Position numbers and translations under genes: made by a program. Positions 8,566 to 36,829 of a stretch of 37,234 nucleotides of DNA are shown in pieces. A model generated the notes under the pieces. It worked only from the letters and a program-made list of their open reading frames with translations. It did no database searches and was not told where the DNA came from. Numbering within the stretch: the stretch's first letter is position 1; each line of letters begins with the position of its first letter. Source of the DNA: a virus; IMG/VR virus record IMGVR_UViG_3300046804_004139, positions 1 through 37,234 of that record. One strand, 5' to 3'.

Positions 8566-10173
8566 ATGCTAAGATCTAATAACATTAAACTAACAGGTAG
8601 ATTGATCGTCGATAAGTTTGACGAGAAGATGAACCTTATTGAGAAAAAGGAAATCCCAAACTTAGTAGTAACTGCGGGTAAAGAATGGATAGCTGCACGT
8701 TTAAATACTGCGGGAGGCCAAACTACAGCGCAATTAAAACGAAGCGGACAACTTGACATTGGTTATCGTTACAGAGTATGTTCAATTGGAACTACTGACT
8801 GGAATACAATGGGTGGTACTGTAGCTGCTACAGGAACTGGTTCAACTCCTACATTATCTACTGTATCTATTACAGGTACAGCTGGTCAATTTCAATGTGC
8901 ATCATTCTCTACTTTAAAAGTAGGTATGTCTGTTAAGATCACTGGAACATTTAGTGCAGGTTCTATTTCAGGTTATGCAACAGGAACAACATATTATATC
9001 ATAGCTACAAACGGTAGCACAACATTTACATTGTCAACATCAGCTGGAGGCTCAGCGGTATCAACTACAGCATCAGGTGGTACTATTACTGGTGTTACAT
9101 TTACAATGTCAAACACACTAACAATTTCAGGTTCAACTACGGGTTCTTTTGCTGTTGGTCAAGTTATCTATGGAACAAACGTAGTTACTGGTTCTAAGAT
9201 CTCTCAATTAGCATCAGGTACTGGTACTACAGGAACTTATGTATTAGATACACCAGCTTCTGGTTCAGTGTCAGGTACAATAACTGGTGGTGAAGTATAT
9301 GATATTGGTCGTATCTTCACAGCAGCAACAACTGGTCTTAAGGTAGATGCATCATCAACAACTTCAAGTGGTTCAACAGGAAGTACATCATTAACAGTTG
9401 GTGGTACGATCTCTGGTACATTTGCAATAGGTCAAACAGTTTTTGGTACAGGTATTCCAGATAATGCTATCATAACTTCACAATCTTCAGGCACATCAGG
9501 TGGTGCGGGTGTTTATGTATTAAGCTTACCATTAACTGGTGCGGCTTCTGGGGGTGTAACAACACAATATGACCCAGGTATCGCTATTCTATCAGCTTCG
9601 ATGGGTTTCATGGCTATTGGTGATGGTACTGATGCTACGGCTGTAGGTCAAACATCATTAGTAAAAGAAACTGCACGCGTATCTATTTCAACTGGTACAG
9701 CATCAGGTTTAGATGGTATCTTTACTGCGATCTTCCCAGCAGGTACACCATCAGCTGCTACAAATAACATCTATGAAGCTGGTATCTTTAATCAACCTGG
9801 TTCTAAAGTTAAGACATTTGATGCATCAGCTGATGTAAACGGTACTACACATGCTATTAATATTACTTCTCATGGATTCTCCACTGGTGATAAAGTAACT
9901 TATCAAACTGGCGGTGGTACAGCATTATCAACTGGTACTGGTACTTTAACTAATGGTGGTACATATTATGTTATTAAAGCTGATGCAGATAACTTTAAGT
10001 TGGCATTAACTGCAACAGATGCAACTGCTGGAACTGCCATAAATATAAGTACAGGTACTGGTAGTAACCAAAAAATCATCTACGGTACTATGCTTGCTAG
10101 AACGACTTTCCCAGTTATTACAAAGTCATCATCTGAAACAGTTGCTATTACTTGGATCATTACAGTAGGATAA
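8566..10173 (+). CDS. Virion structural protein with VPNLVV/EAGIFN core and inserted modules, 535 aa
   Basis: The core consists of an N-terminal piece ('IKLTGRLIVDKF' to 'IPNLVVTAGKEWIAARL', residues ~7-46), a middle 'MGFMAIGDGTDATAVGQTSL' (~346-365), 'NIYEAGIFN' (~400) and a C-terminal 'TMLARTTFPVITKSSSET' with a final ITWIITV strand. The gene at 33917 is a paralogue with the same four blocks. In this copy residues ~60-335 are a nested set of modules A, B and D, and residues ~424-505 are a module C between 'EAGIFN' and 'MLARTTF'. I recognise the core from marine phage virion genes but know no specific role. AAGGAG at 8555-8560 is a strong Shine-Dalgarno overlapping the previous stop. Position between the gp7-like gene and gp8 suggests a baseplate or fibre component. 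Confidence 0.7.
   Translation: MLRSNNIKLTGRLIVDKFDEKMNLIEKKEIPNLVVTAGKEWIAARLNTAGGQTTAQLKRSGQLDIGYRYRVCSIGTTDWNTMGGTVAATGTGSTPTLSTVSITGTAGQFQCASFSTLKVGMSVKITGTFSAGSISGYATGTTYYIIATNGSTTFTLSTSAGGSAVSTTASGGTITGVTFTMSNTLTISGSTTGSFAVGQVIYGTNVVTGSKISQLASGTGTTGTYVLDTPASGSVSGTITGGEVYDIGRIFTAATTGLKVDASSTTSSGSTGSTSLTVGGTISGTFAIGQTVFGTGIPDNAIITSQSSGTSGGAGVYVLSLPLTGAASGGVTTQYDPGIAILSASMGFMAIGDGTDATAVGQTSLVKETARVSISTGTASGLDGIFTAIFPAGTPSAATNNIYEAGIFNQPGSKVKTFDASADVNGTTHAINITSHGFSTGDKVTYQTGGGTALSTGTGTLTNGGTYYVIKADADNFKLALTATDATAGTAINISTGTGSNQKIIYGTMLARTTFPVITKSSSETVAITWIITVG
8743..9340 (+). repeat. Module A split by modules B and D
   Basis: The first half of A ('YRYRVCSIGTTDWNTMGGT', 8761-8820) is followed by module B (about 8851-9108, 'TLSTVSITGTAGQFQC' to 'TYYIIATNGSTTFTLS') and module D (about 9118-9290, 'GSFAVGQVIYGTNVVTGSKI'). 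Then comes 'GEVYDIGRIFTAATTG' (about 9290-9340), which resembles the missing second half of A. Confidence 0.5.
9391..9560 (+). repeat. Module D copy
   Basis: Encodes 'TISGTFAIGQTVFGTGIPDN' and 'GGAGVYVLSLPLTGAASGGV'. It is close to the D copies at 9118 and 19130. Confidence 0.6.
9835..10085 (+). repeat. Module C copy inserted before the C-terminal strand block
   Basis: Encodes 'SHGFSTGDKVTYQTGGGTAL' and 'TYYVIKADADNFKLALTATD'. The paralogue at 33917 has only about 15 residues at this site. Confidence 0.6.
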
Positions 10174-10177
10174 TACC

Positions 10178-13100
10178 ATGTCACTATCGTTTTCCGTATT
10201 TAAACCTAGATTTAAAAAGACTATCGCTGAAGCCGTCTATAATGAGGTGGTTTCCGGTACTTCTATCTACTATCATTGGTTGGGTAAGGAAAACTTGTGG
10301 ACAGACTTCTTATCACCGTTCATTGGCTCATCAGCTGGTGATTATCCAGGTCAACCATCAAATAACTTCCGTTATGACTTGCACGTTAAACGAGATATCT
10401 TAACACTTAAAAAGATTAAACCTTCAGACGTATCATTCGTTGTTAAACGTATTGATTGGGTTCAAGGTAACGTTTATGATATGTATGATGATGCGATCGA
10501 AACCGTAACAGGTTATGGTTATGCTCCTTCATACTCTGGTGCAGTGACACTAGAAGACTCATTATTCTATGTACTAACATCTGAGTATAAAGTTTATAAG
10601 TGTATTTGGAATGCTAATAACTCTCCATCTACTATCATGCCAACTTCTACATCTACAAAAGTAGTTACTACTTCAGATGGTTATAAATGGAAGTTCATGT
10701 ATTCTATTCCAGTATCATTACGAAATCGTTTCTTAACACCTGAATGGATGCCTATCGCTACAGCTCTTAAATCACAATACTACTCTGGTGGTGAGTTAAG
10801 ATCTATAGCTATTCAAAATGGCGGTGGCGGTTATGGTAGAACTACAACAACAGCTGCGATCTCTGGTGATGGATACCAAGAGATTAACCCATATGCTATA
10901 ACTGAAATAGTAGTTGGAACTCCATTATCTGGCACAACAGGTGGAAGCGGATACTTAGTAAAAGCTGGAAGTTTAGTTCCGGGCGACGAGTATGTGATCC
11001 TCACATTTAAAGATTCATTATTTTCAGGTTATATTAGTGATAGAGGTACTTCAGCAGGTACTGTATTAACTGTATCTGATATTAGTACAGGATCATATAA
11101 CGGATTAATAGACGTAAATCAAGAATTAAGTGGAGCTAGTATTACCGCACCAACTTTGACAACAGTTAAGATTACTGGTACTGGTGGCACATTCACATGT
11201 GATGCTACTACTCTTACGGTAGGCCAAAAAGTAGTTATCACTGGAACATTTACTGCAGGCAGTATTACTGGCTACTCAACAGGTAATACATATTACATTA
11301 TTACTACGAATGGTACTACATCATTCACACTATCATCTTCATATGGAGGTAGTGCAGTAACTACAACATCATCATCAGGTTCTGAAACTGGCGCAACATA
11401 TAAAAAGAATATCCTTGTAGTAAATCAAAGAGCAACAGCTGTAGGAACATTAGCGGCAAACAGCGCAATGGTTACATTATCATCAACTGATGGTAAGATT
11501 ATTCCTGGTATGGCTGTTACTGGTCCATCATCAACCACATTATCTAACGTAAGCATCTATAATGCGGCCGGTATATTCCAATGTGATGCTACTACATTAG
11601 CTGTAGGTCAATCAATCACTATCAGTGGAACATTAGCTAGTGGAGCAACTGGTGCTATAAGCGGTTATTCTAACCCTACTACATACTACATTACTTCAAC
11701 TAATGGTACAACTTCATTCACTCTATCAACTTCATTAGGTGGATCTTCAGTTACTACAACTGCAGGTACTGTAACTGGTTTAACATTTACTGTATCATAC
11801 ATTCCTGCTGGTACTCGTGTATTATATACTGACACAGTATCAAACACTGTAACATTAAGTACAACAGCAAGAGGCCCATTAACTGGTGCAGCATTAACAT
11901 TTATTGGTACTAAATCTATATCTAAGACAAATTATTCTGGTGCTACAATGGCTACAGCATCAACTGCATGGTCTTCAGGTGGTACTGCGACATTAAATTC
12001 ATATTATGTAGCAGGCACAACACCGTCAAGACGCTACTATCAATGTACAACTGCAGGAACATTTACAACAACAGCTCCTACTCATACATCTGGTTCAGCT
12101 TCTAACGGTACTGCAACACTAACATTTATTTGTTCTGAAGGCGCATTACCATATACATTAGTAACTAGATCAGCTATGATTGGTACTCCATTAGTTGGTA
12201 TGGAAGTTACGGGTTCTGTTGCTATACCAGCTGGAACAACCGTATTGCAAGTAAATGGTACATCACCAAACTATTACCTAACATTTGCTTCATCACAAAC
12301 TATAAATTCATCAACATGGGTTAATGATACTTATTTAGAATTGAATAATGGGTTTGAAGGAAGAGCGGGAACATACACGGTTGATACTTCTGCATTGACA
12401 GCAAGCGCAGATGTAACAGGTTCTGATAATTATACTACAGATTTTACTACAGTTGGCGCAGGAACAAATGCTGAAGGTGTTGTATTTACGGCTTCTGATG
12501 TAGCCTCCGGAAATGGTACAGTTTATAAAGTAGTTAGAACTACGGTAGCTGAACCATTTGAATCTGCTTCTGATTGGGTATCTAGTGGTACAGTTTCTAA
12601 AGGTCAATACATTAAGAATACGACTGGCGGATTTACTTACTACTATGAAGTTATTTCAGGTACAGCGGTAGGTACAACTCCTCCTACACACACTGGTGTT
12701 GTTGCTGGTAAAGGTCAAACAACATCATATACAGCAGGTGGAGGTAACGTAGAGTTTAAGTATGTCGGTAAGAGAACTGAATTAAATACTGCTATCATGA
12801 CTGCTGACAACGATTCTATAGCTCAAGTAGTTATTTCAGATGTAGGTTTAGGTTATAAAGGAAAACCTGATTTAACTTTCACACCTCCATACACATACAC
12901 ATCATTGTGGAAACCATCTTATGCAGGTGATTCTTTAGGTAACATCATTAAACATGAAGATCGTTATTATAGAGTTATGGGTACAGGCACTACTAATGCT
13001 ACTGATGGTCCATCACACGTAAGCGGAACAGCTGTAAATGGAAGTGTAGTATTCAAATTTTTAGGTCAAGATCCAAAATTAACAGCATCAGTTACTAAAA

Positions 13101-14659
13101 CTGAAGCTGCGATCTCATTGATTATTAGCCCACCAAAAGACAGCGTATTTAAGTTAGTATTAAATTATGGTGGTGACAAATATGTTGAAGCTCCAACTAT
13201 AACGATAGATCCTCCAGGAGGTGGTGGTAGTACTGCTACAGCAACCGCAGTTCTTGGAACTGGTACTTATGCTGGTAAAGTATATACTACTGAAGTCGTC
13301 GAAGTTGGTAATGGTTATACTGAAACTCCAGATGTAAGTATATCAAAACCTCAAGTTACCATTAACAGTCAACTATACACCTCTGGTGGTAATTTAAACT
13401 ATACCACAGACATCATAACATATACATCAGGTGGTGTTGCTAGCATTCATAGATTAGAAACTGGTGATCCAGTCATCTATAGTAATGGTGGTGGTACATC
13501 AATCGGTGGGTTAACTAATGGTAATACATACTATATCATTCGTGTAGATAGTACCAGCTTTAAATTAGCTACAACAAAAGCTAACGCTGTATCTACAACA
13601 GCTATAGATTTATCAACACCGGGTTCATTTAGTACTGGTCATACATTTACCTTATTAGCAACTGAAGAAGCTGCTACAGCAACAGCAGTATTAGGTACTG
13701 GTGGTGAGATCGTTGGTTATACAATTGATGACTATGGCACAGGTTATACTAATGCTACTATCGCTATTAACGATACATCACAATCAAGTACATGGAATGC
13801 AAACAATTCTGGCGGTGCAGTCTTGATCGCAGACTTTGACGTTGGTAACGTAGAGACTCTACAAGCTGACGTAGAGTTGCTTGCTGTGCCAGGTTCTATT
13901 GAAGTAGTTAAGATGGTTAATAAAGGAACAGGTTACTCTGTAGCCACAGTTGAGATTCGTGGTGATGGTACTGGAGCAACAGCTATTGCAACATGTTCAG
14001 GAGGAGAAGTTACACATATTGAGATCGTTACTACTGGTTCAGGTTATACTTGGACTGATATCATCATCTCAGGTAATGCTGGTGCATCTGGTGCAGAAGC
14101 TCGAGCAATTATGTCTCCACAAGATGGTCATGGAGCAAACGCTCTTGAAGAACTAAACGCACACTCATTATCATTCTTCACATCTATCTCTCGTGACGTT
14201 AACCAAGGTATTGAAGTTACCAATGATTATCGTAAGTTAGGTTTAGTAAGAAACATTAAGAAGTTTGGTTCTAACCAACGTTTCTCAGAAGACAACGGTT
14301 CAGGTTGCGTATTGATCGAAGGTACTTTTAATAAATTGAACTTAAGACAAGACATGCTTCTATTAAAAGATGGCTATAAGAAGTATCGTATCGTTGAGTT
14401 TAATGATACTCAGATCTTACTATCAGTTTTCAATAACTTTACTATTGCTCCAGGAGATACGCTTGAGACTGATCCAACCAACTTAGGTACTATTACAGAT
14501 CCAGCACTACAGCCTCCACAGATGACTATTACAGTTAACGCTGTTAAGGAAAGAACGATTGACCAGTTCTCAGGAGACTTCTTGTTCTTCTCGGTAAGAG
14601 AATCCTATGCTCCTACACCGGAACAAATTGTTACTGCAAGAACCACAATAACCATATAA
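10178..14659 (+). CDS. 8: Baseplate wedge protein gp8-like, 1493 aa, with a ~1,100-residue internal expansion
   Basis: T4 gp8 (334 residues) is a wedge protein. Here the N-terminal ~230 residues carry the gp8 pattern: 'ETVTGYGYAPSYSGAVTLED', 'VYKCIWNANNSPSTIMPTST' and 'TSDGYKWKFMYSIP', comparable to T4 'GDGYVWEYLFEIP'. The C-terminal ~170 residues ('RDVNQGIEVTNDYRKLGLVR' onward) end in 'SGDFLFFSVRESY' plus a final beta strand, matching the T4 ending 'SGEMIYMENR'. Between them lie modules A-D, partly nested, and from about residue 880 several 'GxGYTxAPxVxIxGDGTGATA'-type repeats. A Shine-Dalgarno AGGA lies at 10167-10170. The stop overlaps the next late promoter box. The frame is open throughout, so the expansion is not a frameshift artefact. 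Confidence 0.85.
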   Translation: MSLSFSVFKPRFKKTIAEAVYNEVVSGTSIYYHWLGKENLWTDFLSPFIGSSAGDYPGQPSNNFRYDLHVKRDILTLKKIKPSDVSFVVKRIDWVQGNVYDMYDDAIETVTGYGYAPSYSGAVTLEDSLFYVLTSEYKVYKCIWNANNSPSTIMPTSTSTKVVTTSDGYKWKFMYSIPVSLRNRFLTPEWMPIATALKSQYYSGGELRSIAIQNGGGGYGRTTTTAAISGDGYQEINPYAITEIVVGTPLSGTTGGSGYLVKAGSLVPGDEYVILTFKDSLFSGYISDRGTSAGTVLTVSDISTGSYNGLIDVNQELSGASITAPTLTTVKITGTGGTFTCDATTLTVGQKVVITGTFTAGSITGYSTGNTYYIITTNGTTSFTLSSSYGGSAVTTTSSSGSETGATYKKNILVVNQRATAVGTLAANSAMVTLSSTDGKIIPGMAVTGPSSTTLSNVSIYNAAGIFQCDATTLAVGQSITISGTLASGATGAISGYSNPTTYYITSTNGTTSFTLSTSLGGSSVTTTAGTVTGLTFTVSYIPAGTRVLYTDTVSNTVTLSTTARGPLTGAALTFIGTKSISKTNYSGATMATASTAWSSGGTATLNSYYVAGTTPSRRYYQCTTAGTFTTTAPTHTSGSASNGTATLTFICSEGALPYTLVTRSAMIGTPLVGMEVTGSVAIPAGTTVLQVNGTSPNYYLTFASSQTINSSTWVNDTYLELNNGFEGRAGTYTVDTSALTASADVTGSDNYTTDFTTVGAGTNAEGVVFTASDVASGNGTVYKVVRTTVAEPFESASDWVSSGTVSKGQYIKNTTGGFTYYYEVISGTAVGTTPPTHTGVVAGKGQTTSYTAGGGNVEFKYVGKRTELNTAIMTADNDSIAQVVISDVGLGYKGKPDLTFTPPYTYTSLWKPSYAGDSLGNIIKHEDRYYRVMGTGTTNATDGPSHVSGTAVNGSVVFKFLGQDPKLTASVTKTEAAISLIISPPKDSVFKLVLNYGGDKYVEAPTITIDPPGGGGSTATATAVLGTGTYAGKVYTTEVVEVGNGYTETPDVSISKPQVTINSQLYTSGGNLNYTTDIITYTSGGVASIHRLETGDPVIYSNGGGTSIGGLTNGNTYYIIRVDSTSFKLATTKANAVSTTAIDLSTPGSFSTGHTFTLLATEEAATATAVLGTGGEIVGYTIDDYGTGYTNATIAINDTSQSSTWNANNSGGAVLIADFDVGNVETLQADVELLAVPGSIEVVKMVNKGTGYSVATVEIRGDGTGATAIATCSGGEVTHIEIVTTGSGYTWTDIIISGNAGASGAEARAIMSPQDGHGANALEELNAHSLSFFTSISRDVNQGIEVTNDYRKLGLVRNIKKFGSNQRFSEDNGSGCVLIEGTFNKLNLRQDMLLLKDGYKKYRIVEFNDTQILLSVFNNFTIAPGDTLETDPTNLGTITDPALQPPQMTITVNAVKERTIDQFSGDFLFFSVRESYAPTPEQIVTARTTITI
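10940..12540 (+). repeat. Nested module cassette in gp8 (A, B, D types)
   Basis: An A-like opening 'AGSLVPGDEYVIL' (about 10960-11000) is separated from an A-like ending 'YTTDFTTVGAGTNAEGVVFT' to 'GNGTVYKVV' (about 12430-12535). In between are two module B copies (about 11155-11405 and 11540-11800), each apparently inside a D-type module, and a further D-like unit ('LVGMEVTGSVAIPAGTTVLQ', about 12190-12250). Confidence 0.5.
12810..14130 (+). repeat. Series of Gly-Tyr beta repeats in gp8, interrupted by module C
   Basis: Repeated pattern of a short strand, 'GxGYxxxPxVxIxxP' and a Gly/Ala/Thr loop. Examples: 'VVISDVGLGYKGKPDLTF', 'VVEVGNGYTETPDVSI', 'YTIDDYGTGYTNATIAI', 'MVNKGTGYSVATVEIRGDGT' and 'IEIVTTGSGYTWTDIIISG'. 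A module C (about 13440-13660) sits within the series. Similar Gly-Tyr units occur at residue ~210 of this protein and in the gp7-like protein. Confidence 0.6.
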
Positions 14660-24499: not shown

Positions 24500-26224
24500 A
24501 TGGCAGATATAACACTACGAACTGGACCAACTGGAAAAGGTGCTCCTCTATCATTGGAGCAGGTTGACCTTAACTTTACTAACATCAACACTGAGTTAGG
24601 CTTAAAGCTTGACGCTGTTAACTATACAGCAGCTGATGTATTAGCAAAGTTATTAACAGTTGACTCAGACACTGCCGGGATTAATGCTACAACTCTTAAG
24701 AGCTTAGATACTTCTTCAACTGTACCAACGACTGGTACAAAAGAAACAATCGTTAAACGTGACACAAGCGGTAACTTTGCTGGTGCAACTATCACAGCTG
24801 GAACAGGATTTGCCGGCAACTTAACTGGTAATGTTACAGGCGACTTAACAGGTAATGCTGATACCGCTACTAAGTTAGCTACAGCAAGAAACATCAACGG
24901 TGTTGCATTTGATGGTACAGCTGCTATCACAGTTTATGATTCTACAAAAGTATTAAAAGCCGGCGATACAATGACTGGTAACTTAACACTCAACTATACT
25001 GTTGATCCTGTTACAAGTGATGCTAAGTTAGGCGTAAACAAAGAATATGTTGACAAATATGGCGTACCAAAAGGTACTATCGTTATGTGGAGCGGCACAG
25101 CATTACCGGACAACATGGTTGGTATTTGGGGACTATGTGATGGTACAGTAGAAAATGGAGTATCTAAACCAGACTTAAGAAACAGATTCGTATACGGTGC
25201 TGCTACTTTTGGTGGTGTACGCACAACAGGTGGTTCTAACACAGTAACAACTTCAACAGCAGGTTCACATAGCCATACATCTGCTACAGGTAGAACTAAA
25301 TTATCTGCGGGTGATTGGCCAGAACATACACACGATTTCTATGATGTGTATGCTCTTTGGGGTGATAAGCCAGGAAATTATAGGATCGAAGGCGGTCTTC
25401 CAGTGTATCCTAAAACAGTTTCAGCTGGTGCTAATGGTGTAGGATTTAGAGATAAAGATGGTAACTTCGTAGAACAATACTTCTACTATAGTAATGCTGT
25501 AGACGGAGATAATGACGGAGCTGCTTATGCATTTAAGAACGTGACTTTACCTAATGACGGTGCAGGTAGTCCAACTTACACTACAGCAGATATGTTATGG
25601 GACTTTAGTACCGGATTATACGCCCTAGGTACTGATGCCCGTGTTGATTTATATAGTGTCTATTATAATAATACTAGCATCTCAGTTCCTGGCATAACTT
25701 CAGCTGGTTATATCGGATCATTTGGGTTTTCAAGCGCTACAAGTACATCGCCAGATTACTTAAGAACATTACAAAGTACATCTCCATTTGTACTAACAAC
25801 TTATAATAAGATTAGATATCAAGTTAATAAAGGTACAGATTCTACTTGGGGTGAAGTGCCTGATGGTGAGAACGAAGAGGAAATTAGACTTGACTATTCC
25901 ATAGACAACATTACATGGTATAATTTAAAGAAAACATACCCTAAAGAAGTTTCAGGTAATGTTTGGACAGATATCGAGGTTACTATACCAACTGCAGCTA
26001 AAGTTGCTGGTGGTGTATACTTAAGATACTCACAACCTCGCAATGGTTCAGCATCTCCTCCAAGAGATACTTGGGCATTTTCACCTCCACAATTTATAAC
26101 TACTGTGGTAGCACCTTCTGATGGTCACTTACATACTATCTCCTCAGATGGAACTCATGAACATACGGTGTCAGGTATCTTACCTCCATACTATACATTG
26201 GCATATATCATCAAGTTGATTTAA
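24500..26224 (+). CDS. Tail fibre with phage tail-collar domain (gp12-like), 574 aa
   Basis: Anchor 'LSLEQVDLNFTNINTELG' at the N-terminus, then the fibre repeat region 'GNLTGNVTGDLTGNADTATK' (~110) and 'AGDTMTGNLTLN' (~155). The collar domain begins near residue 187: 'GVPKGTIVMWSGTALPDNMV', 'LCDGTV' and 'KPDLRNRFVYGAA'. His-x-His pairs near 257 and 276, and again near 542 and 553, resemble the metal-binding His motif of T4 gp12 short tail fibres. The end 'PPYYTLAYIIKLI' is standard for this domain. About 250 residues are inserted between the two His pairs, including a beta-sandwich-like stretch. Shine-Dalgarno AGGA lies at 24490-24493. Function: receptor binding, probably a short tail fibre. 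Confidence 0.87.
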   Translation: MADITLRTGPTGKGAPLSLEQVDLNFTNINTELGLKLDAVNYTAADVLAKLLTVDSDTAGINATTLKSLDTSSTVPTTGTKETIVKRDTSGNFAGATITAGTGFAGNLTGNVTGDLTGNADTATKLATARNINGVAFDGTAAITVYDSTKVLKAGDTMTGNLTLNYTVDPVTSDAKLGVNKEYVDKYGVPKGTIVMWSGTALPDNMVGIWGLCDGTVENGVSKPDLRNRFVYGAATFGGVRTTGGSNTVTTSTAGSHSHTSATGRTKLSAGDWPEHTHDFYDVYALWGDKPGNYRIEGGLPVYPKTVSAGANGVGFRDKDGNFVEQYFYYSNAVDGDNDGAAYAFKNVTLPNDGAGSPTYTTADMLWDFSTGLYALGTDARVDLYSVYYNNTSISVPGITSAGYIGSFGFSSATSTSPDYLRTLQSTSPFVLTTYNKIRYQVNKGTDSTWGEVPDGENEEEIRLDYSIDNITWYNLKKTYPKEVSGNVWTDIEVTIPTAAKVAGGVYLRYSQPRNGSASPPRDTWAFSPPQFITTVVAPSDGHLHTISSDGTHEHTVSGILPPYYTLAYIIKLI

Positions 26225-26283: not shown

Positions 26284-26619
26284 ATGGCTATCGTACAACA
26301 TCTAATAATCGATCAGAATTCAACCTTCTCAGCAGAGGTTACCATCTATGGTGACACTCGCTACCCTCTAGACTTAACCGGATATACAGCTGCTGCTCAG
26401 ATGAGAAAGTCATTTGGCTCAACATCTTATACAGCTTTTACCTGTACAATCCAAACACCGCGTTCAAATGGTAAGGTATCATTATACCTGACTGACGAAC
26501 AGACTGCGGCATTAAAACCTGGAAGATACCTCTATGATGTTATCGTAGAGAACTCGTCAGGGGAAAAGTTTAGAGCCATCGAAGGTGTAATCACTGTAAA
26601 CGCTACTATTACCCGATAA
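26284..26619 (+). CDS. Small Ig-like/BppU-like virion protein, 111 aa
   Basis: Short beta-sandwich-type protein with the pattern 'DLTGYTAAAQMRKSFGSTSY' (residues ~30-49), 'KVSLYLTDEQTAALKPGRYL' and 'YDVIVENSSGEKFRAIEGVI'. This resembles the N-terminal fold of upper baseplate (BppU-type) proteins and small virion proteins of T4-like marine phages. It is the first gene after a late promoter box and ends three bases before the start of the 2378-residue repeat protein. That arrangement suggests it attaches or chaperones this neighbour, which is inference. Confidence 0.75.
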   Translation: MAIVQHLIIDQNSTFSAEVTIYGDTRYPLDLTGYTAAAQMRKSFGSTSYTAFTCTIQTPRSNGKVSLYLTDEQTAALKPGRYLYDVIVENSSGEKFRAIEGVITVNATITR

Positions 26620-26622: not shown

Positions 26623-29600
26623 ATGGCAAAGAAGATCCCTAGTGCAAGCATCAATATCACTAGTGCTCTTAGATCCATATTAACACAGTCGGACGTAAAA
26701 CGTTCAGTAGTAGATCAAAATCAGTTAATAAATTCTAAGATCAGAGTGACTGGCGGAGCATTCGCTGCAGCCGGTAACGCTCTATCTCCAATCGACCACG
26801 TAGCAATATCTTATGCTGGTTCAACATTCCGAGTAACAGCAGCAGATCTAATATCAGCAGTCACTGATACTATTAAAGTATCGATGGACTATGGTATCAA
26901 ACCTAAAGACTTCGTATCTAACTTATCAGATAAGATCACGTCATTCTCTATTGGTAAAGGCCTTAAAGACTTTGCTCCAGCAACAGAATCTATTAAGATT
27001 GCTATGGGCTTTAACAGAGCTTATGCTTCTGTTCAGTCTGCTCCATTAGATAGAAGGTTCATTGGATCAAGTAAAGTATTAAGTACTGTCACAGATCCTA
27101 TCGATAGTACATCGAGAGGATTCGTAAAATCAGCTAAAGACTTTATAAACAACATAAGCGATACTGTACGACCTTCCTTAACTAAATCATTAAAAGACTT
27201 TGTAATCCCATTAGATTACATGACGATTACAGATGGTTCTACATTCGAAGATGTTAAGGTTGTCAAAGATCTACAACCGGCAATTGAAAACTTATCTAGA
27301 ACAGTAAGTTACAATAGAGCATACCAAGATACTCAACCAGCTGAAGATAGACCATTTAAAGGTTTATTCAAGAGCTTTGCTGACTTTGTAAACACAGAAG
27401 ATGTATTAGACTTCAATAGATTTAAAGAAGAAACTGCAGAAGATACTTTCAATATAACAGATGCTGATGTTAGAGGGGTTATTAAAGCTGTAAGTGATAC
27501 AGCTATACCTCTCGATTACATGACTATCGATGATGGTTCTACATTTGAAGATGTTAAAGTACTAAGAGAAACAATATTTGCATCTGATATTAGAACAACA
27601 GATTATGCAAAACAATTAAAAGACATACAACCAGAGTTTGAAGGTCCTCGCAGAGGCCTTGCTAGCGACTTCTCCGTCGATTATTTCCTTGATGATTATA
27701 CTGAAGATCTTCGCCCGGTATGGAACTTTAATAAAGCTGTAGCAGACTTTGTAATCCCACTTGATTACATGGAAATCTTCGACGGTTCAACATTTGAAGA
27801 TGTTAAAGTATTAAGAGAAACAATAACAACTCCAGAGGCATTTAGTAGAACAGTAAGCTTCATTAGAAGATATATTGATAGCGTAAGTGTATTAGATGAT
27901 GGTAATATTTATAGTATAACTAAAGTGTTTAAAGATACAGCTGTTGCTCTTGACTACATGACCATAGCTGATGGTTCTACATTCAGCGATATTAAAGTAC
28001 TATCAGAAACTGCACCCGCAACAGATAGATTTACACGTGTATTAACGTTTGGCCGACGAGTAACTGATACAGTAATCGCTGACATAAACAATCAGTATAC
28101 ATTTATTAAACCTAGAAGTGATATTGTTGATGCACCGATTGACGGTTCAGGTCATGATACATACGCGTTTGATTATTTCCTTGATGGATCTGATCCATAC
28201 TTCTATGCTAATAAGTGGTTACCATTAATTAACTTTACTAAAGCTGTCCATGATTCAGTAATCCCACTTGATTATATGACTATTGCTGATGGCAGTACGT
28301 TTGAAGATGTTAAACGTTTATTCGACATTGTTACAACACCAGATAGAATACCATTAGATTTAACTAAACCATTAAGAGATGCTGTAGATAAGTTTGAAGG
28401 TCCTGGGTTCGGTAGTCAAGATGACTTTTCATTTAACTATTTCCTTGATGACTATACTACTGATCCGCGACCAATATGGACGATCTATAAACCATTCGTT
28501 GAACCATTAAGCTTAATAGAAGTATTCACATTAAGTTATACTCCTACAAGAAAATTTGTTGAGACTATGACAGTCTCCGACTTTGGTGGAGATACGTTTG
28601 ACTTACATAAACCATTTGCAGACACTGTTGGAACTCTTGACGAAACTACTATCACTGACGGTGGTTTATATACTATCGCTAAGACTTTTGTTGAAACATT
28701 ACGCGCGATAGAAGGTCCAGCTACACGATTCTTACCAGATTATATTGATCCATCTATTGATGATGGTGATTATTGGACAGATCCTACATATATCGAAGAT
28801 CATATACCAATATACACTATAGTTAAACCATTATCCGATTCTGTAATCCCACTAGATTACATGACTATTGCAGACGGATCGACATTTGAAGACATTAAGC
28901 GTATATTTGATACAGTATCAGTGGAAGAAGCTGGTCAAAATACATTCGACTTAACTAAACCACACACAGAAGCACAACCATTCTTCGAAGGTCCAGCTTA
29001 TGGTGACATCAACGATTACTCACCAGAGTATTTCCTTGACAAGTATACTGAAGACTTTAGACCAATATGGACGATCTATAAACCATTTGCAGATTCAGTA
29101 ATCCCATTGGATTACATGACTATTGCTGATGGTAGTACATTCGAGGATGTTAAACCATTACCACCAGAATTTATAGTTATAAGTTCATTTAGTTCTTTTG
29201 ATTGGTTAAAAACAAAAGATGAAGTGTTATCAGTATCTGATGCTGGCGGAGATGTATTCGATCTTAATAAAGCGATATTCGAATATAAGAAACCGGTAGA
29301 AGGTCCTGCATATCATGACTATACTTGGTATGCTATTGATTATTTTAATGATCCATATGCAGAATTCTTTGGTTCTATATTTGATTTCACTAAAGTGCTA
29401 CCTGGCGATTTCCAACCAGCATTAGATCATAATGCAGTCACATTCCAACCAGGAACTATCAAAGATTTCGTATCTGAGATAAGTGACTTTGGAAATATAT
29501 TCGACCTAAATAAGGTCAATCAATCGAGCGTAGAGTTAGAAGACTACGGTACTCTTTATAGCTTAACTAAAGTACTAGCAGATTCAGTAATTCCGCTTGA

Positions 29601-32600
29601 TTACATGACTATCGCGGATGGATCAACATTTGAAGATATTAAAGTATTACCAGAACAATTTGTTGGTGTATTTGATGACGGTAATACGTTTGACTTCAAT
29701 AAAGCTAAATTTGATTTTGTTTCTACAGAAGACTACGGCACACTATTCACATTAGAAAAAGTACTTGGCGATTCAGTAAGACCTAAAGAAGGTCCTACGA
29801 CGTATGATGGTGATGATTATGTACCAGATTGGACAGATCCCGCATACCTTGATGATGGTAGACCAATCTATAATATTATCAAAGTCTTACCTACTGATTA
29901 TGCAGTAGCTCTTGACTATATGACTATTGCGGATGGTTCTACATTCGACTATACTAATGTATTACCTCCAGATTTTGTAGATGCTCCAACAGATAGAAAC
30001 GTATATGACTTCAATAAAGGCCAATTTGATTTTGTTTCTACAGAAGACTATGGTACATTATTTGATATCACGTTAGTTAAGAGAGAATTTGTAGACCAAC
30101 CTCAAGGTCCAGTATACAAAGATTATACTCAATACTCTCCTGACTACTTTGCTGATAACTATACCGAGTATTTCAATATCAGCTATACGTTTATTAAGGT
30201 AGTAACACCAGACTTTGTAATCCCATTAGATTACATGACGATTGCTGACGGTTCTACATTTGATGAGATCAAAGTATTATCATCTATCAATCCAAGTCCT
30301 ACTGACAAGCTAACTACAGATCCAACAAAAGCGCTTGCTAGCTTCCAATACAGAGAGATCGAAGGTCCTGGTTATGGCAATGGAGATGACTTCTCATTAA
30401 ATTATTTCCTTGATGATTACACAGAAGACTTACGTCCTATCTGGACATTTACTAAAGCATTAGCGGACTCTGTAATACCATTAGATTACATGACCATCAC
30501 AGATGGTAGTACATTCGATGAGATTAAGGTATTAGCTTCATTACAATCTGCACCATTAGATAATGATACGTTCGACTTTAATAAAGTCCAGTCATCTTTT
30601 GTATCTAACATTGAAGACAATGGTAATCTATTTGAATTTACTAAAGTACTTGCAGATTTCCAATTAACTCGTCAAGGACCAGTAGATTATAACTTCGATG
30701 GTTATATTCCAGGATTTGGTGATCCTACCTACCTTGACGATGGCAATATACTATACACGTTTAATAAAGTATTATCAGATTCTGTAATCCCATTAGATTA
30801 CATGACTATTGTTGATGGTAGTACATTTGAAGATGTTAAAGTATTGTCTAGCTTTGTAACTGATATATCAGATGATGGCAATACATTTAGCTTTGATAAA
30901 GGCTTACATTCATATGTAACTAATGAAGATTACGGTACTCTATATACTATTGATTTAGTTAAGAGAGATTCTGTAAACGAAACCCAAGGTCCAGTATATA
31001 AGGATTACACGCAATATTCTGGTGACTACTTTGCTGATAATTATACTGAATACTTTAACATAAGCTATACATTCATTAAAATATTGCCTACAGACTTTGC
31101 TATTGCTTTAGATTACATGACGATTGCTGATGGCTCAACATTTAGTGATACTAAGATATTACCACCAGACTTTGTAACAGATATCAGTGACTTTACTACT
31201 ACGCATCCAACTAAAGCCTTATCAAGCAGTAATACTGGAACATCTGATCTATTACTACCATTTACATTCATCAAAGGTTTATCTGATGAAGTATTTGCTA
31301 TAGAAGTATTACGCATCCAACAACCACTAAGGGCGGATAAAGATAATCCGCAGATGGTTGATCAACTCGATGCTCATATATTTGATACAATTAAAGCATT
31401 GGCTGATACTGCGATACCATTAGATTACATGACGATTGCTGATGGATCTACATTTGCTGATATTAAGATACTAAGAGATGTAATAGATGCTCCTATCAGT
31501 GGGTCCGGTAGAGATAACTATGCGTTAAACTACTTTGATGATCCATATTACTATGCATTCCGTTTAGTTCCTATCTTTGATTTTAATAAGGTAATACATG
31601 ATTCAGTAATCCCATTGGATTACATGACAATTGTAGATGGGTCGACGTTTGATGAGATAAAAGTATTAGCTACACTCCAACCTGCCCCGTCTGATAGAAT
31701 CAGCAATATTAGTGCTGGTAAAGTATTAGGCTCTGTGCAGCCTGGAGTTGCTGATAATGGCAATGTATTCAACTTTAATAAAGTACTTGCAGACTTCCAA
31801 CTTACAAGACAAGGTCCAGGAGAAAATAATGCTAGCGACTATGCCTATGATGGTGTAGGAGATTACGGCAGTCCTGTATGGATGGATCCATCATACATTG
31901 ATGATAGCCGAGCAATATTTACTCTAACTAAAGTACTATCTGATTCTGTAATCCCACTTGATTACTTAACTATAGCTGATGGTTCAACATTTGAAGATGT
32001 TAAAGTATTATCAAGCTTTGTGTCTAACATCTCAGATGATGGTAATGTATTTGACTTAACAAAACCAAGGTCAGATAATATAGCGAGAGAACTTGAAGGA
32101 CCACGTAGAGGTTTACCAAGTGACTTCTCACCTGATTACTTCCTTGATGACTATACAGAAGATCTAAGACCAATATGGAACTTTAATAAGACTTTATCTG
32201 ATAGCGTTATACCTCTTGACTATATGACTATAGTCGACGGTAGTACATTTGAAGATGTTAAACCATTACCACCTGAGTATATAAGCACTAGCACATTTAA
32301 TGCGTATGATTTTAATAAAGTTAAGTCAGAAACGATGGTGGCTTCTGATGTCTTATTACCGTTTAATGTAAACCTTGCTAAGTTTGAATATGTAACTGAA
32401 CCTCAAGGTCCGGTTTACTATGACTACACACAATATTCCACAGACTACTTTGCAGACAACTATGCAGAGTACTTTAATCTCAAGTATAGCTTTACTAAGG
32501 TACTTGCTTCTAGTGCTATTGCTCTAGATTATATGACGATTGTAGATGGATCAACATTTGCTGATGTTAAGATCCTTGCTACTTTACAACCAGCACCTCA

Positions 32601-33759
32601 AGATGCTATAGCTAATTACCCACAAAAAGTACTATCAAGCTCTAATACTGGCACATCAGATAGGTTATTACCATTTACGTTCATCAAAGGTATCAATGAC
32701 TTCGTTTCTACAATGGACAATCAGTCTATCGCCCAACCTTATACACTAGATCGTTATAACCCACAAAAGGTATATCAACTTGACGATGATATCTTTAACC
32801 TTAATAAAGCTTTAATCTCATCAGCAACTAATGAAGATAATGGTAATGTATTTAACTTTAATAAAGTATTAACTGACAGTGTACGAGCAAAAGAAGGACC
32901 TGGTGATAACACAGCTGATGACTATGTGAATACATGGACAGATCCAAGCTATATTGAAGATGGACGCCCAGTTTATAACTACATTAAAGTTCTTCCTGCA
33001 GACTATGTAACAGCTCTTGATTACATGACAATTGCAGATGGATCGACGTTCGCTGATGTCAAAGTATTGTCAAGCTTCGTGTCTAATATATCTGATAATG
33101 GAAATGTATTTGACTTTAATAAAGTTAAACGAGACACACAACCAGCATCTGATACTTTACTACCATTTACAACAGGACTTGTTAAGCGCGACACAGTAAT
33201 CCAACCGCAAGGTCCAGTTTACTATAATAAAGCCGGTTATGCTCCTGACTTCTTCAATGATGACTATACTGAGTTCTTTGGTCCTAAGTATACAATAATC
33301 AAGCCATTATCTGACTTTGTAATCCCTCTTGATTACATGACTATTGCGGATGGATCAACATTTGCTGATATCAAACCAATAAGTGATATATTAAGTGCTT
33401 CTGACAGAAGAACCAATGAAGTAGTAAAACCCGTTGCTGATTCACAAGTAGGTCAAGGTGATGGAAAATTACATGGCCAAGATTGGTACGCCACGGATTA
33501 TTTTGATGGGTATTCTGGTCTGCTATCTCCTCCGGAAACCGTATTCCAATATACTATAGAATATAAGCCAACTATAATATTCGATAAAGTAAGGCATGAC
33601 ATAGTTCAGCAACAAGATGCTATTACTAATAGTTTTACAAAACCTATAAACAGCCCGCTATTATCTACTCTTACTGGCGGGCTAATAAACAAACATGACT
33701 ATGTGGCCGGGGTGTTTTTTGCAGCAGATTTTGTAGGTACGGCTTATGCCCTAACATAA
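26623..33759 (+). CDS. Giant repeat protein, 2378 aa
   Basis: No family name can be given. After an N-terminal region (1-~190) with weak K-x-x-x-D repeats, the protein contains 20 copies of 'IPLDYMTIADGSTFEDVK' or close variants. These alternate with ~20-residue units ('SDDGNVFDFNK') and ~42-residue units ('QGPVYKDYTQYSPDYFADNY'). All units share a starting K-x-x-x-D/S-x-V and an ending F/Y-x-F-x-K. It is rich in Asp, Phe, Tyr, Lys and Val, unlike the Gly/Thr/Ser-rich neighbours, which suggests an elongated solenoid or fibre shaft with acidic loops. The C-terminal ~100 residues are non-repetitive. It starts 3 bases after the previous stop without a clear Shine-Dalgarno, so translational coupling is likely. 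Confidence 0.8.
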   Translation: MAKKIPSASINITSALRSILTQSDVKRSVVDQNQLINSKIRVTGGAFAAAGNALSPIDHVAISYAGSTFRVTAADLISAVTDTIKVSMDYGIKPKDFVSNLSDKITSFSIGKGLKDFAPATESIKIAMGFNRAYASVQSAPLDRRFIGSSKVLSTVTDPIDSTSRGFVKSAKDFINNISDTVRPSLTKSLKDFVIPLDYMTITDGSTFEDVKVVKDLQPAIENLSRTVSYNRAYQDTQPAEDRPFKGLFKSFADFVNTEDVLDFNRFKEETAEDTFNITDADVRGVIKAVSDTAIPLDYMTIDDGSTFEDVKVLRETIFASDIRTTDYAKQLKDIQPEFEGPRRGLASDFSVDYFLDDYTEDLRPVWNFNKAVADFVIPLDYMEIFDGSTFEDVKVLRETITTPEAFSRTVSFIRRYIDSVSVLDDGNIYSITKVFKDTAVALDYMTIADGSTFSDIKVLSETAPATDRFTRVLTFGRRVTDTVIADINNQYTFIKPRSDIVDAPIDGSGHDTYAFDYFLDGSDPYFYANKWLPLINFTKAVHDSVIPLDYMTIADGSTFEDVKRLFDIVTTPDRIPLDLTKPLRDAVDKFEGPGFGSQDDFSFNYFLDDYTTDPRPIWTIYKPFVEPLSLIEVFTLSYTPTRKFVETMTVSDFGGDTFDLHKPFADTVGTLDETTITDGGLYTIAKTFVETLRAIEGPATRFLPDYIDPSIDDGDYWTDPTYIEDHIPIYTIVKPLSDSVIPLDYMTIADGSTFEDIKRIFDTVSVEEAGQNTFDLTKPHTEAQPFFEGPAYGDINDYSPEYFLDKYTEDFRPIWTIYKPFADSVIPLDYMTIADGSTFEDVKPLPPEFIVISSFSSFDWLKTKDEVLSVSDAGGDVFDLNKAIFEYKKPVEGPAYHDYTWYAIDYFNDPYAEFFGSIFDFTKVLPGDFQPALDHNAVTFQPGTIKDFVSEISDFGNIFDLNKVNQSSVELEDYGTLYSLTKVLADSVIPLDYMTIADGSTFEDIKVLPEQFVGVFDDGNTFDFNKAKFDFVSTEDYGTLFTLEKVLGDSVRPKEGPTTYDGDDYVPDWTDPAYLDDGRPIYNIIKVLPTDYAVALDYMTIADGSTFDYTNVLPPDFVDAPTDRNVYDFNKGQFDFVSTEDYGTLFDITLVKREFVDQPQGPVYKDYTQYSPDYFADNYTEYFNISYTFIKVVTPDFVIPLDYMTIADGSTFDEIKVLSSINPSPTDKLTTDPTKALASFQYREIEGPGYGNGDDFSLNYFLDDYTEDLRPIWTFTKALADSVIPLDYMTITDGSTFDEIKVLASLQSAPLDNDTFDFNKVQSSFVSNIEDNGNLFEFTKVLADFQLTRQGPVDYNFDGYIPGFGDPTYLDDGNILYTFNKVLSDSVIPLDYMTIVDGSTFEDVKVLSSFVTDISDDGNTFSFDKGLHSYVTNEDYGTLYTIDLVKRDSVNETQGPVYKDYTQYSGDYFADNYTEYFNISYTFIKILPTDFAIALDYMTIADGSTFSDTKILPPDFVTDISDFTTTHPTKALSSSNTGTSDLLLPFTFIKGLSDEVFAIEVLRIQQPLRADKDNPQMVDQLDAHIFDTIKALADTAIPLDYMTIADGSTFADIKILRDVIDAPISGSGRDNYALNYFDDPYYYAFRLVPIFDFNKVIHDSVIPLDYMTIVDGSTFDEIKVLATLQPAPSDRISNISAGKVLGSVQPGVADNGNVFNFNKVLADFQLTRQGPGENNASDYAYDGVGDYGSPVWMDPSYIDDSRAIFTLTKVLSDSVIPLDYLTIADGSTFEDVKVLSSFVSNISDDGNVFDLTKPRSDNIARELEGPRRGLPSDFSPDYFLDDYTEDLRPIWNFNKTLSDSVIPLDYMTIVDGSTFEDVKPLPPEYISTSTFNAYDFNKVKSETMVASDVLLPFNVNLAKFEYVTEPQGPVYYDYTQYSTDYFADNYAEYFNLKYSFTKVLASSAIALDYMTIVDGSTFADVKILATLQPAPQDAIANYPQKVLSSSNTGTSDRLLPFTFIKGINDFVSTMDNQSIAQPYTLDRYNPQKVYQLDDDIFNLNKALISSATNEDNGNVFNFNKVLTDSVRAKEGPGDNTADDYVNTWTDPSYIEDGRPVYNYIKVLPADYVTALDYMTIADGSTFADVKVLSSFVSNISDNGNVFDFNKVKRDTQPASDTLLPFTTGLVKRDTVIQPQGPVYYNKAGYAPDFFNDDYTEFFGPKYTIIKPLSDFVIPLDYMTIADGSTFADIKPISDILSASDRRTNEVVKPVADSQVGQGDGKLHGQDWYATDYFDGYSGLLSPPETVFQYTIEYKPTIIFDKVRHDIVQQQDAITNSFTKPINSPLLSTLTGGLINKHDYVAGVFFAADFVGTAYALT
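27211..33390 (+). repeat. 20-copy LDYM repeat array within the giant protein
   Basis: LDYM (or LDYL) codons start at 27211, 27511, 27760, 27949, 28267, 28852, 29107, 29596, 29911, 30226, 30481, 30793, 31108, 31420, 31615, 31957, 32215, 32524, 33016 and 33328. Nine of the 19 intervals are 300-318 bases, four are 249-258, two are 189-195; the others are 342, 489, 492 and 585. Fifteen [EQ]GP-type long units are interspersed. Two degenerate LDYM-like units occur in the longest gaps, near 28635 ('LDETTITDGG') and near 29420 ('ALDHNAVTFQ'). Confidence 0.9.
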
Positions 33760-33916: not shown

Positions 33917-34861
33917 ATGGCAACAATTCAAGAACATATCAAGGCGACGGGTAAACTAAATATTTTAGTTACTGGTGCTGACGGTAAAGTAAAGCAAGAC
34001 CTCTTTGTTCCTAACTTAGTTGTAGCTTTAGGTAAAAACTACATCGCAGGTAGAATGAAAGACACAGTTTCAGGTTTCACAACTCCAACTCAAATGGGTT
34101 ATATGGCAGTTGGTGAAGTTTCAGAAAGCTATAACTATGGTACAGCTTCATCAGTATCACAGTTTGGCCCTTTCACATACAACAATACACTAGCAGCTGA
34201 AATTGCTTCTAGCCGTACAGCTTTAACAACAGCTGGTGGTACACAAGGCACAACAGTTACAACTACTGCAACTGGTTCAAACTCAGGTACAACTTTAACA
34301 GTTGGTTCATACTCTGGTATCGTTGCTGGTATGTACGTACACGGTCAAGGCGTTGCTGCAGGTACTAAAGTATCTACAACACCTGGCTCAACATCAGTAA
34401 CAATCGATACAGCTTTAACAGCTGATTTAGGTTCAGCTTCAACATCAGCTACTGGTTCTTCTGGTGCTAAGACGATCTCTGTATCATCTGCATCAGGTAT
34501 CGCAGTTGGTCAAGCTGTTTCTGGTACAGGTATCGGTTTAAATGCTAAAGTTTACTCAATCTCTGGTACAACTATCACATTGACAGTTGCTAACTCAGGT
34601 GCAGTATCAGGTACTATTACATTTAGCCAACCAGTATACTTCACAAACGCTAACACAATCACTTATGCTTGCACATTCTTACCAGGTACAGGTACAGGTG
34701 CTATTGTTGAAGCAGGTATCTTTAACGATTCATCCCCATCTCATACAGAATCAGTTTCTAGTTTAGTTGGTGGTGTAATGCTTTGTCGTACAACATTCGC
34801 TGTTGTTAACAAAGGTGCTGACGATACTATGTCTATTACATGGACAGTAACAATTAGTTAA
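33917..34861 (+). CDS. Virion structural protein with VPNLVV/EAGIFN core, 314 aa
   Basis: Paralogue of the 535-residue protein at 8566. The core blocks are 'KATGKLNILVTGADGKVKQD' and 'VPNLVVALGKNYIAGRM' (residues ~9-52), 'MGYMAVGEVSESYNYGT' (~60), 'ITYACTFLPGTGTGAIVEAG' followed by IFN (~250-275), and 'GVMLCRTTFAVVNKGADDTM' with a final ITWTVTI strand. Between ~115 and ~235 are two D-like modules ('VAGMYVHGQGVAAGTKV', 'IAVGQAVSGTGIGLNAKV'). It lacks the A, B and C modules of its paralogue. With two late promoter boxes, a long leader, a strong Shine-Dalgarno and frequent GGT/GCT/CGT codons, it looks like a highly expressed virion protein. The exact role is unknown. Confidence 0.75.
   Translation: MATIQEHIKATGKLNILVTGADGKVKQDLFVPNLVVALGKNYIAGRMKDTVSGFTTPTQMGYMAVGEVSESYNYGTASSVSQFGPFTYNNTLAAEIASSRTALTTAGGTQGTTVTTTATGSNSGTTLTVGSYSGIVAGMYVHGQGVAAGTKVSTTPGSTSVTIDTALTADLGSASTSATGSSGAKTISVSSASGIAVGQAVSGTGIGLNAKVYSISGTTITLTVANSGAVSGTITFSQPVYFTNANTITYACTFLPGTGTGAIVEAGIFNDSSPSHTESVSSLVGGVMLCRTTFAVVNKGADDTMSITWTVTIS
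34300..34625 (+). repeat. Two module D-like units in the 33917 protein
   Basis: Encodes 'LTVGSYSGIVAGMYVHGQGV' and 'SGIAVGQAVSGTGIGLNAKV', the latter followed by 'TITLTVANSGAVSGTITF'. The region lies between two core blocks that are separated by other modules in the paralogue. Confidence 0.5.
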
Positions 34862-34888: not shown

Positions 34889-36829
34889 ATGGCTAATAAT
34901 TCATCTACAATAATCACGCGATCTGCAAAGGGAACGCCACTAGCTTACACTGAAGTTGATGCTAACTTCACTAATCTAAACACAGATAAGGTAGCGGCAA
35001 GTGGTGGTTCGATGTCTGGTGGTGCAATTGATGACACTACGATCGGTGCTACAACTAGATCTTCTGGCAAGTTTACGACCCTTGACGCGAATGGCAATGT
35101 GATCCTAGGCGATGCATCAGGAGATACTGTAACAGTTAATGGTACAGTAACTCCTGCTTCATCATCAGCAATTGGTTTACTAGTTTCTGGTACATCATCA
35201 GGAGCAATGCTAAAAGTAACACAACAAGGAACTGGTGACGCTTTCGTAGTCGAAGACGTTGCATCAGATTCCACCCCATTCAAAATCGACCAATCAGGTA
35301 ACGTAACGATTGGCGGTAACTTAACAGTTCAAGGTACAACCACAACGATCAGTTCTACTACATTAGATGTTACAGACTTAAATATTACTGTAGCTAAAGG
35401 TTCTGGCAGTTCTTCTGCAGCAGACGGTGCAGGTCTTACAGTAGACATCGGTGGTTCTAACCCAACTCTAGTATATACACATTCTGGTACTAAGTTTACA
35501 TCTTCACTAGACTTTGATCTAGCATCAGGTAAAGTATACAAGATCAATAATACAGAAGTTTTAAGTGCTTCTGCTTTAACAATCGGTTCTTTAGGCTATT
35601 CAGCATCTGGCGCTGTAGCTACATTAACTTCAACTGTTGCCGGTTATAACCAATTAGTAGTAAGAAACTTAAGCTCAAATGCTTCTGCTTCTGCAGATAT
35701 CGTTGTAAACAATAACCAATCTACTGATACCACATACTATGGTGACTTCGGTATGAACTCATCAGCATGGTCTGGTACAGGTTTCAGTACAGCTAATGCT
35801 GTATACTTAACAGCTACTACAGCACCATTGATTCTTGGTACAACTACTGATCACGGTGTTGAGATCTGGACAGGTGCTACACCAGTTCAATCATTATCAA
35901 TCGCTGCTACAACTGGTATTACAACATTAAAAGAATTAGCTTTAACAACAAAATTAGCAGTCGCACAAGGTGGTACAGGCGGTTCATCTGCAGGTATCAC
36001 ATTATTCAATAACATTACAGGTTACACAGCTTCTGGCGCAACAGGTACAACATCAACAAACTTGGTGTTCTCAACTAGCCCAACATTAACAACTCCATCA
36101 TTAGCAGCAACTCCTGGTTCAACAGATAACGGTACAGCAGTAGCTTCTACAGCGTTTGTTCGCTTATATGGCGGTTTCCAAAACATGGTGGTTTTAACAT
36201 CAGGTTCTGGTGCAACTGGTACAATCCCAACAGGTATCTCTAAGATTAAAGTTACCATGATTGGCGGTGGTGGAGCTGGTGGTGGAGGTGCTGCAGCGAT
36301 CGGTGACGCAGGAGCAGGTGGTGGTTCTGGTGCAATGTCAATCGCTTACTTAGTATCTGCTTCATTATCAGGTGCAACATATACATACACAGTAGGTACT
36401 GCTGGAGCTGGTGCTTCAGGTGCAGTCGGTGGTAATGGTGGTGCTTCATCATTCTCAGTATTATCAAATACATTCACTGCTCCAGGCGGTACAGGTGGTG
36501 CACTTGGTGCTGCTGTTTCAACTCCATATGCTGGTGGTGCGGGTGGTACAGCAGGTTCTGTAACAGCTGGCGCATATACATCAACACAATTCTTAGTTGG
36601 TACTGCTGGTGGTTTTTCATGGGGTACTGCTGCAGCTGGTACATGTGTAGGTGGTATGGGTGGTTCAGGTTTATTTGGTCAAGGCGCTGGTCGTGGTGCA
36701 GTTGGTGCTACAGTTGCAACAGCTGCTACAGCTAATACTGGTGCAGGTGGTGGTGGTTCAGCTTCTACTACAGCTGCTGCAACTACAGGTGGTAACGGTG
36801 GTTCTGGCGTTATCATTATTGAGTATTAA
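34889..36829 (+). CDS. Tail fibre with glycine-rich adhesin tip, 646 aa
   Basis: Anchor 'GTPLAYTEVDANFTNLNTDK' at residues ~12-31. The shaft has 'TTIGATTRSSGKFTTLDANG', 'GNVTIGGNLTVQGTTTTISS' and 'TLDVTDLNITVAKG', a common marine phage fibre block. A linker 'STDNGTAVASTAFVRLYGGF' (~410-430) precedes the tip. Residues ~451-646 are a glycine-rich domain beginning 'KIKVTMIGGGGAGGGGAAAI' and closing 'GGNGGSGVIIIEY', with six or more Gly-rich runs. This matches the glycine-rich fibre-tip/adhesin class, comparable in style to the polyglycine sandwich of the S16 gp38 adhesin. The tip is fused to the fibre rather than separate. Shine-Dalgarno AAGGG lies at 34876-34880. Function: receptor recognition. 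Confidence 0.82.
   Translation: MANNSSTIITRSAKGTPLAYTEVDANFTNLNTDKVAASGGSMSGGAIDDTTIGATTRSSGKFTTLDANGNVILGDASGDTVTVNGTVTPASSSAIGLLVSGTSSGAMLKVTQQGTGDAFVVEDVASDSTPFKIDQSGNVTIGGNLTVQGTTTTISSTTLDVTDLNITVAKGSGSSSAADGAGLTVDIGGSNPTLVYTHSGTKFTSSLDFDLASGKVYKINNTEVLSASALTIGSLGYSASGAVATLTSTVAGYNQLVVRNLSSNASASADIVVNNNQSTDTTYYGDFGMNSSAWSGTGFSTANAVYLTATTAPLILGTTTDHGVEIWTGATPVQSLSIAATTGITTLKELALTTKLAVAQGGTGGSSAGITLFNNITGYTASGATGTTSTNLVFSTSPTLTTPSLAATPGSTDNGTAVASTAFVRLYGGFQNMVVLTSGSGATGTIPTGISKIKVTMIGGGGAGGGGAAAIGDAGAGGGSGAMSIAYLVSASLSGATYTYTVGTAGAGASGAVGGNGGASSFSVLSNTFTAPGGTGGALGAAVSTPYAGGAGGTAGSVTAGAYTSTQFLVGTAGGFSWGTAAAGTCVGGMGGSGLFGQGAGRGAVGATVATAATANTGAGGGGSASTTAAATTGGNGGSGVIIIEY

Follow-up and report, generated by a model that had tools for sequence, protein, structure and literature searches.

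The question raised by this locus is what a single uninterrupted reading frame of 2378 amino acids, built largely from short recurring units, does in a virus. The window analysed here was a 37,234-base IMG/VR virus record, and the frame, named P0001, lies at 26623..33759 on the plus strand and is open throughout. The protein is rich in D, S and T, with recurrent DG/DDGN turns, and is acidic (376 D+E and 187 K+R) with no cysteine. The virus is marine and T4-like (Kyanoviridae-like), and PHROG and Pfam matches showed that the genes around P0001 are baseplate and fibre genes. An earlier note on this DNA had suggested a very long fibre among its readings, and gene context and relatives support this: P0001 is probably a tail-fibre shaft, belonging to a very long side fibre of this T4-like virus.

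The protein was divided into an N-terminal region (aa 1-188, 26623..27186) that lies mostly outside the regular array, a repeat array (aa 189-2340, 27187..33642) and a C-terminal signature region (aa 2341-2378, 33643..33756) that ends in HDYVAGVFFAADFVGTAYALT, all on the plus strand. The earlier note had counted twenty LDYM units; the number of units stands, with 19 LDYM and one LDYL (residue 1779). A total of 15 of the 19 LDY[ML] intervals fell inside the three classes it had claimed (2 at 189-195, 4 at 249-258 and 9 at 300-318 bases), while four that it did not mention (342, 489, 492 and 585 bases) fell outside. It had also equated the classes with combinations of three building blocks, and the three unit types do separate; the two short intervals, however, are of unlike make-up (a+b+b' at residues 380-443 and a+c at residues 1600-1665), so the size of an interval class does not map one to one onto composition.

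Parsing with three class HMMs gave 21 a, 26 b and 18 c units with 70% coverage, and P0001 is thus made of about 65 variants of one short repeat. The a unit has 24 residues (LDYMTIADGSTFEDVK), the b unit has 18-20 residues with a short loop, and the c unit has about 40-50 residues with the pattern [EQ]GP...DYFxDxYTED. An example of a complete a+b+b+c cycle is found at aa 984-1087 (29572..29883, plus strand). The unit order is strongly non-random: c was followed by a 15 times (15 of the 18 c units), with a maximum of 13 in 20000 permutations and none reaching 15, and a was followed by b 15 times, a count reached by 14 of the 20000 permutations. A DNA-level tandem array was considered and rejected, as Tandem Repeats Finder returned none at P0001 and the codon identity of the a cores was about that expected from codon usage at most positions. 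The description of the protein as a grammar of units and not a simple tandem repeat held, with strong statistical backing from the unit order.

The three blocks were not unrelated. In all three unit types K or R tends to precede the unit, with an acidic residue, Ser or Thr at +3 and a hydrophobic residue at +5 (100% and 100% of the a units, 87% and 87% of the c units, respectively). Units start after K as x-[LIVF]-x-[DSE]-x-[V/hydrophobic], and their closing K has F, Y or L four residues earlier ([FY]xxxK end). Spacing peaks were found for K to D at +4 and +10 (z 7.7 and 7.2, respectively) and for D to D at +6 and +12, with z ranging from 6.8 to 9.7 over these peaks. The frame shared by a, b and c units can be written K-x3-D-x5-D...FxxxK with loops of three lengths; compared with b, the a loop has about 5 additional residues (TIADG) and the c loop about 20 ([EQ]GP...DYFxDxYTED). 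Judged by these residue patterns, a, b and c are one homologous unit with three loop lengths.

The age of the copies was assessed on the 20 a cores by comparing the chance of the same codon between copies with the codon usage of the gene. Observed and expected identities were close for S (0.23/0.23), G (0.37/0.37), A (0.38/0.39), L (0.28/0.36) and the first T (0.33/0.38). The observed value was somewhat above the expected one for D, Y and I, and one T stood clearly above it (0.73/0.38). Synonymous codons are thus near saturation at most positions, which means that the copies are old and that the peptide was kept copy by copy through selection and not by recent duplication. This shows that each a copy, with its 12-residue core, is individually maintained by selection.

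Relatives of P0001 were not readily found with its own sequence. No relative of P0001 or of two of its cycles was detected among isolate phages by tblastn, IMG/VR peptide patterns made from P0001, its cycles and g15 returned no relatives, and a fixed 19-residue double-unit DNA pattern had no matches. An eIF-5a Pfam match of P0001 was rejected as spurious, being a short match to LDYM segments of which no stretch passes alone. The search pattern that succeeded was taken from marine-phage repeats that end in YFAEDYVG. The DNA pattern for this octapeptide matched at least 120 IMG/VR contigs, and the counts on relatives given here cover the matches listed from these contigs. The distance from the signature to the stop was 13-14 residues in 119 of the 120 relatives listed and 19 residues in one; the proteins end by consensus in ..YFAEDYVGxSRTF, directly before the stop, and the motif is preceded by repeats with the consensus K-x3-D-x5-D-x7.

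Three independent tests linked P0001 to these proteins. The relatives showed the K to D and D to D peaks of P0001's register (z 20-44). A profile of the C-termini of 48 relatives scored 38.8 bits on P0001, with 500 shuffles at 9.9 or below and the reversed sequence at 0.9; the second-best domain (aa 2316-2374, 15.8 bits) reached the C-terminal end of the profile, and P0001 alone among the window proteins matched (E 1.1e-12, next 0.29). Also, a-like 24-residue units, such as DGVAMNDSFDLGDGAVFAFT, were present in 23 of 123 relatives and in none of the shuffles. The end of P0001, FFAADFVGTAYALT before the stop, is the equivalent of QGYCDFTYFAEDYVGxSRTF in the relatives and carries the Y(F/Y)xxD(Y/F)VG signature in a form divergent from the consensus. 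Compared profile to profile, the c units matched the terminal region of the relatives weakly (E 0.0013, probability 18%), a unit profile derived from P0001 did not separate the relatives from shuffles, and the N-terminus of P0001 had no detectable similarity to those of the relatives (9.0 bits, best shuffle 8.0). P0001 is hence, by the three tests, a member of a widespread viral KD-repeat family that carries no name. The earlier statement that it has no family is superseded by this family, with its C-terminal signature and conserved neighbourhood, although no description of the repeat family as such was found in Pfam, PHROGs or the literature, and no solved structure was found for any member.

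A search of 257 Gb of bacterial and archaeal genomes gave 3 matches to the YFAEDYVG motif, only 1 of them real, and since this one lay on a phage-like contig with the usual neighbour genes, the family is viral. Relatives with other unit counts, proposed earlier as a check, were found: family members range from about 200 to 2378 aa. P0001 is the largest member found, about twice the size of the largest other one seen, which has 1171 aa and is fused to a baseplate protein.

The neighbourhood of the repeat gene forms a module with the order BppU_N/p132-like gene, repeat gene, g17-like gene and fibre gene, and the window has all four. The first, g15 (26284..26619, plus strand, 111 aa), lies 3 bases upstream of P0001 and encodes a BppU_N / T5 p132-like Ig-type collar or adaptor. 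It matched phrog_3304 'L-shaped tail fiber protein assembly' (E 2.6e-20) and scored 26 bits with a profile of the BppU_N-like proteins upstream of relatives (300 shuffles, 10.0 or below); the match to the T5 p132 structure 8hqz_Q (PDB profile) was weak (E 0.096), and g15 itself had no Pfam matches. The upstream protein of one relative (L104) passed the curated PF10651 BppU_N cut-off (E 6e-8). Among the relatives listed, a BppU_N-like gene was directly upstream in 95 of 97 stand-alone relatives and in 0 of 12 fused ones. This complementarity is suggestive and is not proof, because the fused genes adjoin tape measure or gp6-like genes. The gene upstream of g15, g14 (24500-26224), is a collar-fibre gene, and g15 could act for it rather than for P0001.

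Downstream of P0001, after a gap of 157 bases, lies g17 (33917..34861, plus strand, 314 aa), an NLVV-type fibre adaptor and a homologue of the gene directly downstream of the relatives. A g17-like gene was directly downstream in 106 of the 115 loci with room among the relatives listed, and this neighbour occurs in siphophage, T4-like and stand-alone contexts. In profile comparisons the g17 family was linked weakly to the fibre proteins PF23140, PF12571 and phrog_4176, and significantly (E 1.4e-6) to part of the HFTV1 baseplate hub. It is followed in the window by g18 (34889..36829, plus strand, 646 aa), a fibre/spike protein with an EVDxNFxxLN N-terminus (phrog_863), and a g18 homologue followed the g17-like gene at 59 loci.

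Elsewhere in the window, the g17-type NLVV domain recurs in the protein encoded by g10 (8566-10173), directly after g9. The g9 homologue in other T4-like contigs carries KD repeats, and the g9 of the window is without them. The pair g9+g10 (5704-10173) was considered as a second copy of the module and rejected, as g9 failed the repeat profile (E 0.35), although g10 has the g17-type domain. Homologues of gp8 match the gp8-like baseplate protein (10178-14659, 1493 aa) over two separate segments (about aa 32-352 and 1232-1420), so that almost 900 residues appear to be inserted into the gp8 fold. The adjacent g4 and g5 (2341-3136) encode similar small proteins (130 and 131 aa) and appear to have arisen by tandem duplication of a gene.

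Shorter and fused forms were found in isolate phages and other contigs. In the Achromobacter siphophages JWX and SE2 and in phage Simon, a short version of the repeats ends a phrog_384 virion structural protein, whose gene adjoins the tape measure gene, directly after it. In some T4-like contigs a baseplate protein, whose gene follows a gp6-like gene, carries the repeats at its C-terminal end. The extended gp14 neck proteins of cyanophages, suspected via phrog_384, were rejected, as they carry other repeats. Four consecutive genes of Aeromonas phage phiA008 are BppU_N-like, repeat-like, g17-like and a fibre candidate; a 296-aa protein of this phage (L147:5105-5995) has KD-like repeats and a Gly-rich end, ...FYFGGMSFGGSPFGGRTI, in place of YFAEDYVG, possibly a variant terminus in an otherwise similar module. 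In the Synechococcus cyanophage BUCT-ZZ01 (L145:20-493) a g17-like gene lies directly after the gp5-like hub with no repeat protein, and KD repeats are absent from the hub's C-terminus, so g17-like proteins can exist outside the module. The incomplete first ORF of the window (2-352) resembles the C-terminal part of this hub (...SAFRR...SQHNKGQAVDFV...WLHISY...) and by eye looks like an M15-type peptidase domain.

Structure prediction with AlphaFold was carried out on two cycles of the window protein (pLDDT 36.6, pTM 0.11, alignment of only 12 rows) and on the C-terminus of a relative (pLDDT 60, pTM 0.21, 78 rows). Almost no regular structure was predicted in the repeats in either run. The last 30 residues of the relative alone reached pLDDT 73-81 (block means) and were modelled as a beta hairpin with YFAEDYVG displayed in its loop, which is consistent with a docking tip and not proof of one. 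The earlier note had named prediction of a disordered chain without a repeated fold as an outcome that would count against it; these low-confidence models show neither disorder nor a confident repeated fold.

The following arrangement is proposed for the fibre. A ring of g15 would hold the N-terminal region of P0001, in the way that the p132 collar holds the L-shaped fibre of T5, in line with the lack of an upstream BppU_N-like gene where the repeat proteins are fused to tail or baseplate proteins. The repeats would form an elongated shaft, probably as a homo-oligomer, on which the invariant a segments and the c loops may be regular surface features, perhaps further docking sites. The putative C-terminal hairpin presenting YF..D(Y/F)VG would dock the adaptor g17, and g17 would in turn carry the fibre/spike g18. 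Long-fibre proteins of T4 rise by about 0.055-0.065 nm per residue, and at a similar rise the shaft would be about 130-155 nm long.

Other readings of the repeats were weighed against the shaft. They might be a flexible acidic tether, an entropic linker that gives reach between anchor, adaptor and spike without a defined fold, as the near absence of regular structure in both AlphaFold runs and the acidic, D/S/T-rich composition would allow; by analogy, gp34 of Alishewanella phage LSH1 has low-confidence regions beside an adhesin (PMC13243795). The fixed spacing of hydrophobic and charged positions and the strict unit order are, however, unusual for an unstructured linker, the 12-residue core was kept in 20 copies despite codon saturation, and single-chain prediction with few aligned sequences often fails on intertwined homotrimers, so that a tether is considered unlikely. 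A calcium-binding beta-roll or solenoid of the RTX type, close to the ion-binding solenoid suggested earlier, would suit the acidic composition and the recurrent DG/DDGN turns. Of that suggestion the acidity holds; no calcium- or other ion-binding repeat family matched in Pfam or PHROGs, the unit length and K/D register are unlike the 9-residue RTX motifs, and neither the window segment nor the relative was confidently predicted as a solenoid, which makes this reading very improbable.

A further reading, compatible with the fibre, gives the a units, the c units or both a role in docking or in carbohydrate binding. P0001 would then be a multivalent scaffold or adhesin that carries many copies of g17/g18 or touches the host directly along its length. 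The a cores are conserved one by one, the c units resemble the C-terminal signature region (in the weak match given above), and one relative (L049) has an internal '...SEGPYSGQIYADPTYFAEDYTEDGVPVLLVGK'. Internal copies of the motif occur in 22 of 123 relatives, at most 2 in each, and P0001 has 18 c units. Yet some of these 22 internal copies sit in the non-repeat N-terminal part of baseplate-fused proteins, the internal motif YFLDDYTED is unlike the terminal YFAEDYVG, and no binding domains matched in Pfam or PHROGs; the reading is rated as rather unlikely. Its strongest form, a molecular ladder in which each a+b(+b)+c cycle docks another g17/g18 adaptor-spike, is a long shot; if true, one fibre would show up to about 18 receptor-binding heads, where typical relatives have one docking tip.

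A giant ORF of no family is thereby placed at the far end of a previously unnamed repeat family that spans podo-, sipho- and myovirus-like genomes and comes with a portable four-gene fibre module of collar, shaft, adaptor and spike. Side fibres control host range, and the C-terminal signature with the two flanking genes offers a handle for annotating them in uncultured marine viruses, while the range of family lengths is a natural series on the evolution of fibre length.

Among known systems, phage T5 offers a close layout in the form of p132 and the L-shaped fibre pb1, where, as in the window, a small Ig/BppU_N-like collar gene stands beside a long side fibre (a candidate one here). T5 p132 shows an Ig fold that is linked to the BppU N-terminal domain; it builds a dodecameric collar, which anchors the L-shaped side fibre, and is missing from a fibreless mutant (PMC10038345). 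In T5, p140 anchors p132. The phage of the window is T4-like and adds the g17/g18 continuation; P0001 had no sequence similarity to pb1 or any other known fibre in Pfam, PHROGs, isolate-phage tblastn or structure searches. The BppU of TP901-1 (PF10651) and the upstream family of g15 have a BppU_N-type domain in common, which in the P0001 module is a separate protein and is not fused to the fibre-carrying part as in TP901-1. Fibre I of the Ralstonia podophage GP4 (gp80, PF23140) and Phage_tail_fib (PF12571) were weakly matched by a g17-family protein (L076), below the curated cut-offs. The repeats of Achromobacter JWX gp22 (phrog_384) and of Simon end, as in the P0001 family, in YF[AS]E[SD]YVG and are followed by g17-like and fibre genes; there, a few repeats are fused to a protein of about 250 aa, whereas P0001, with its roughly 65 units, is a protein of its own. 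Side fibres on p132/BppU-like collars are a kind of object already known, and P0001 is a newly recognised and extreme form of it.
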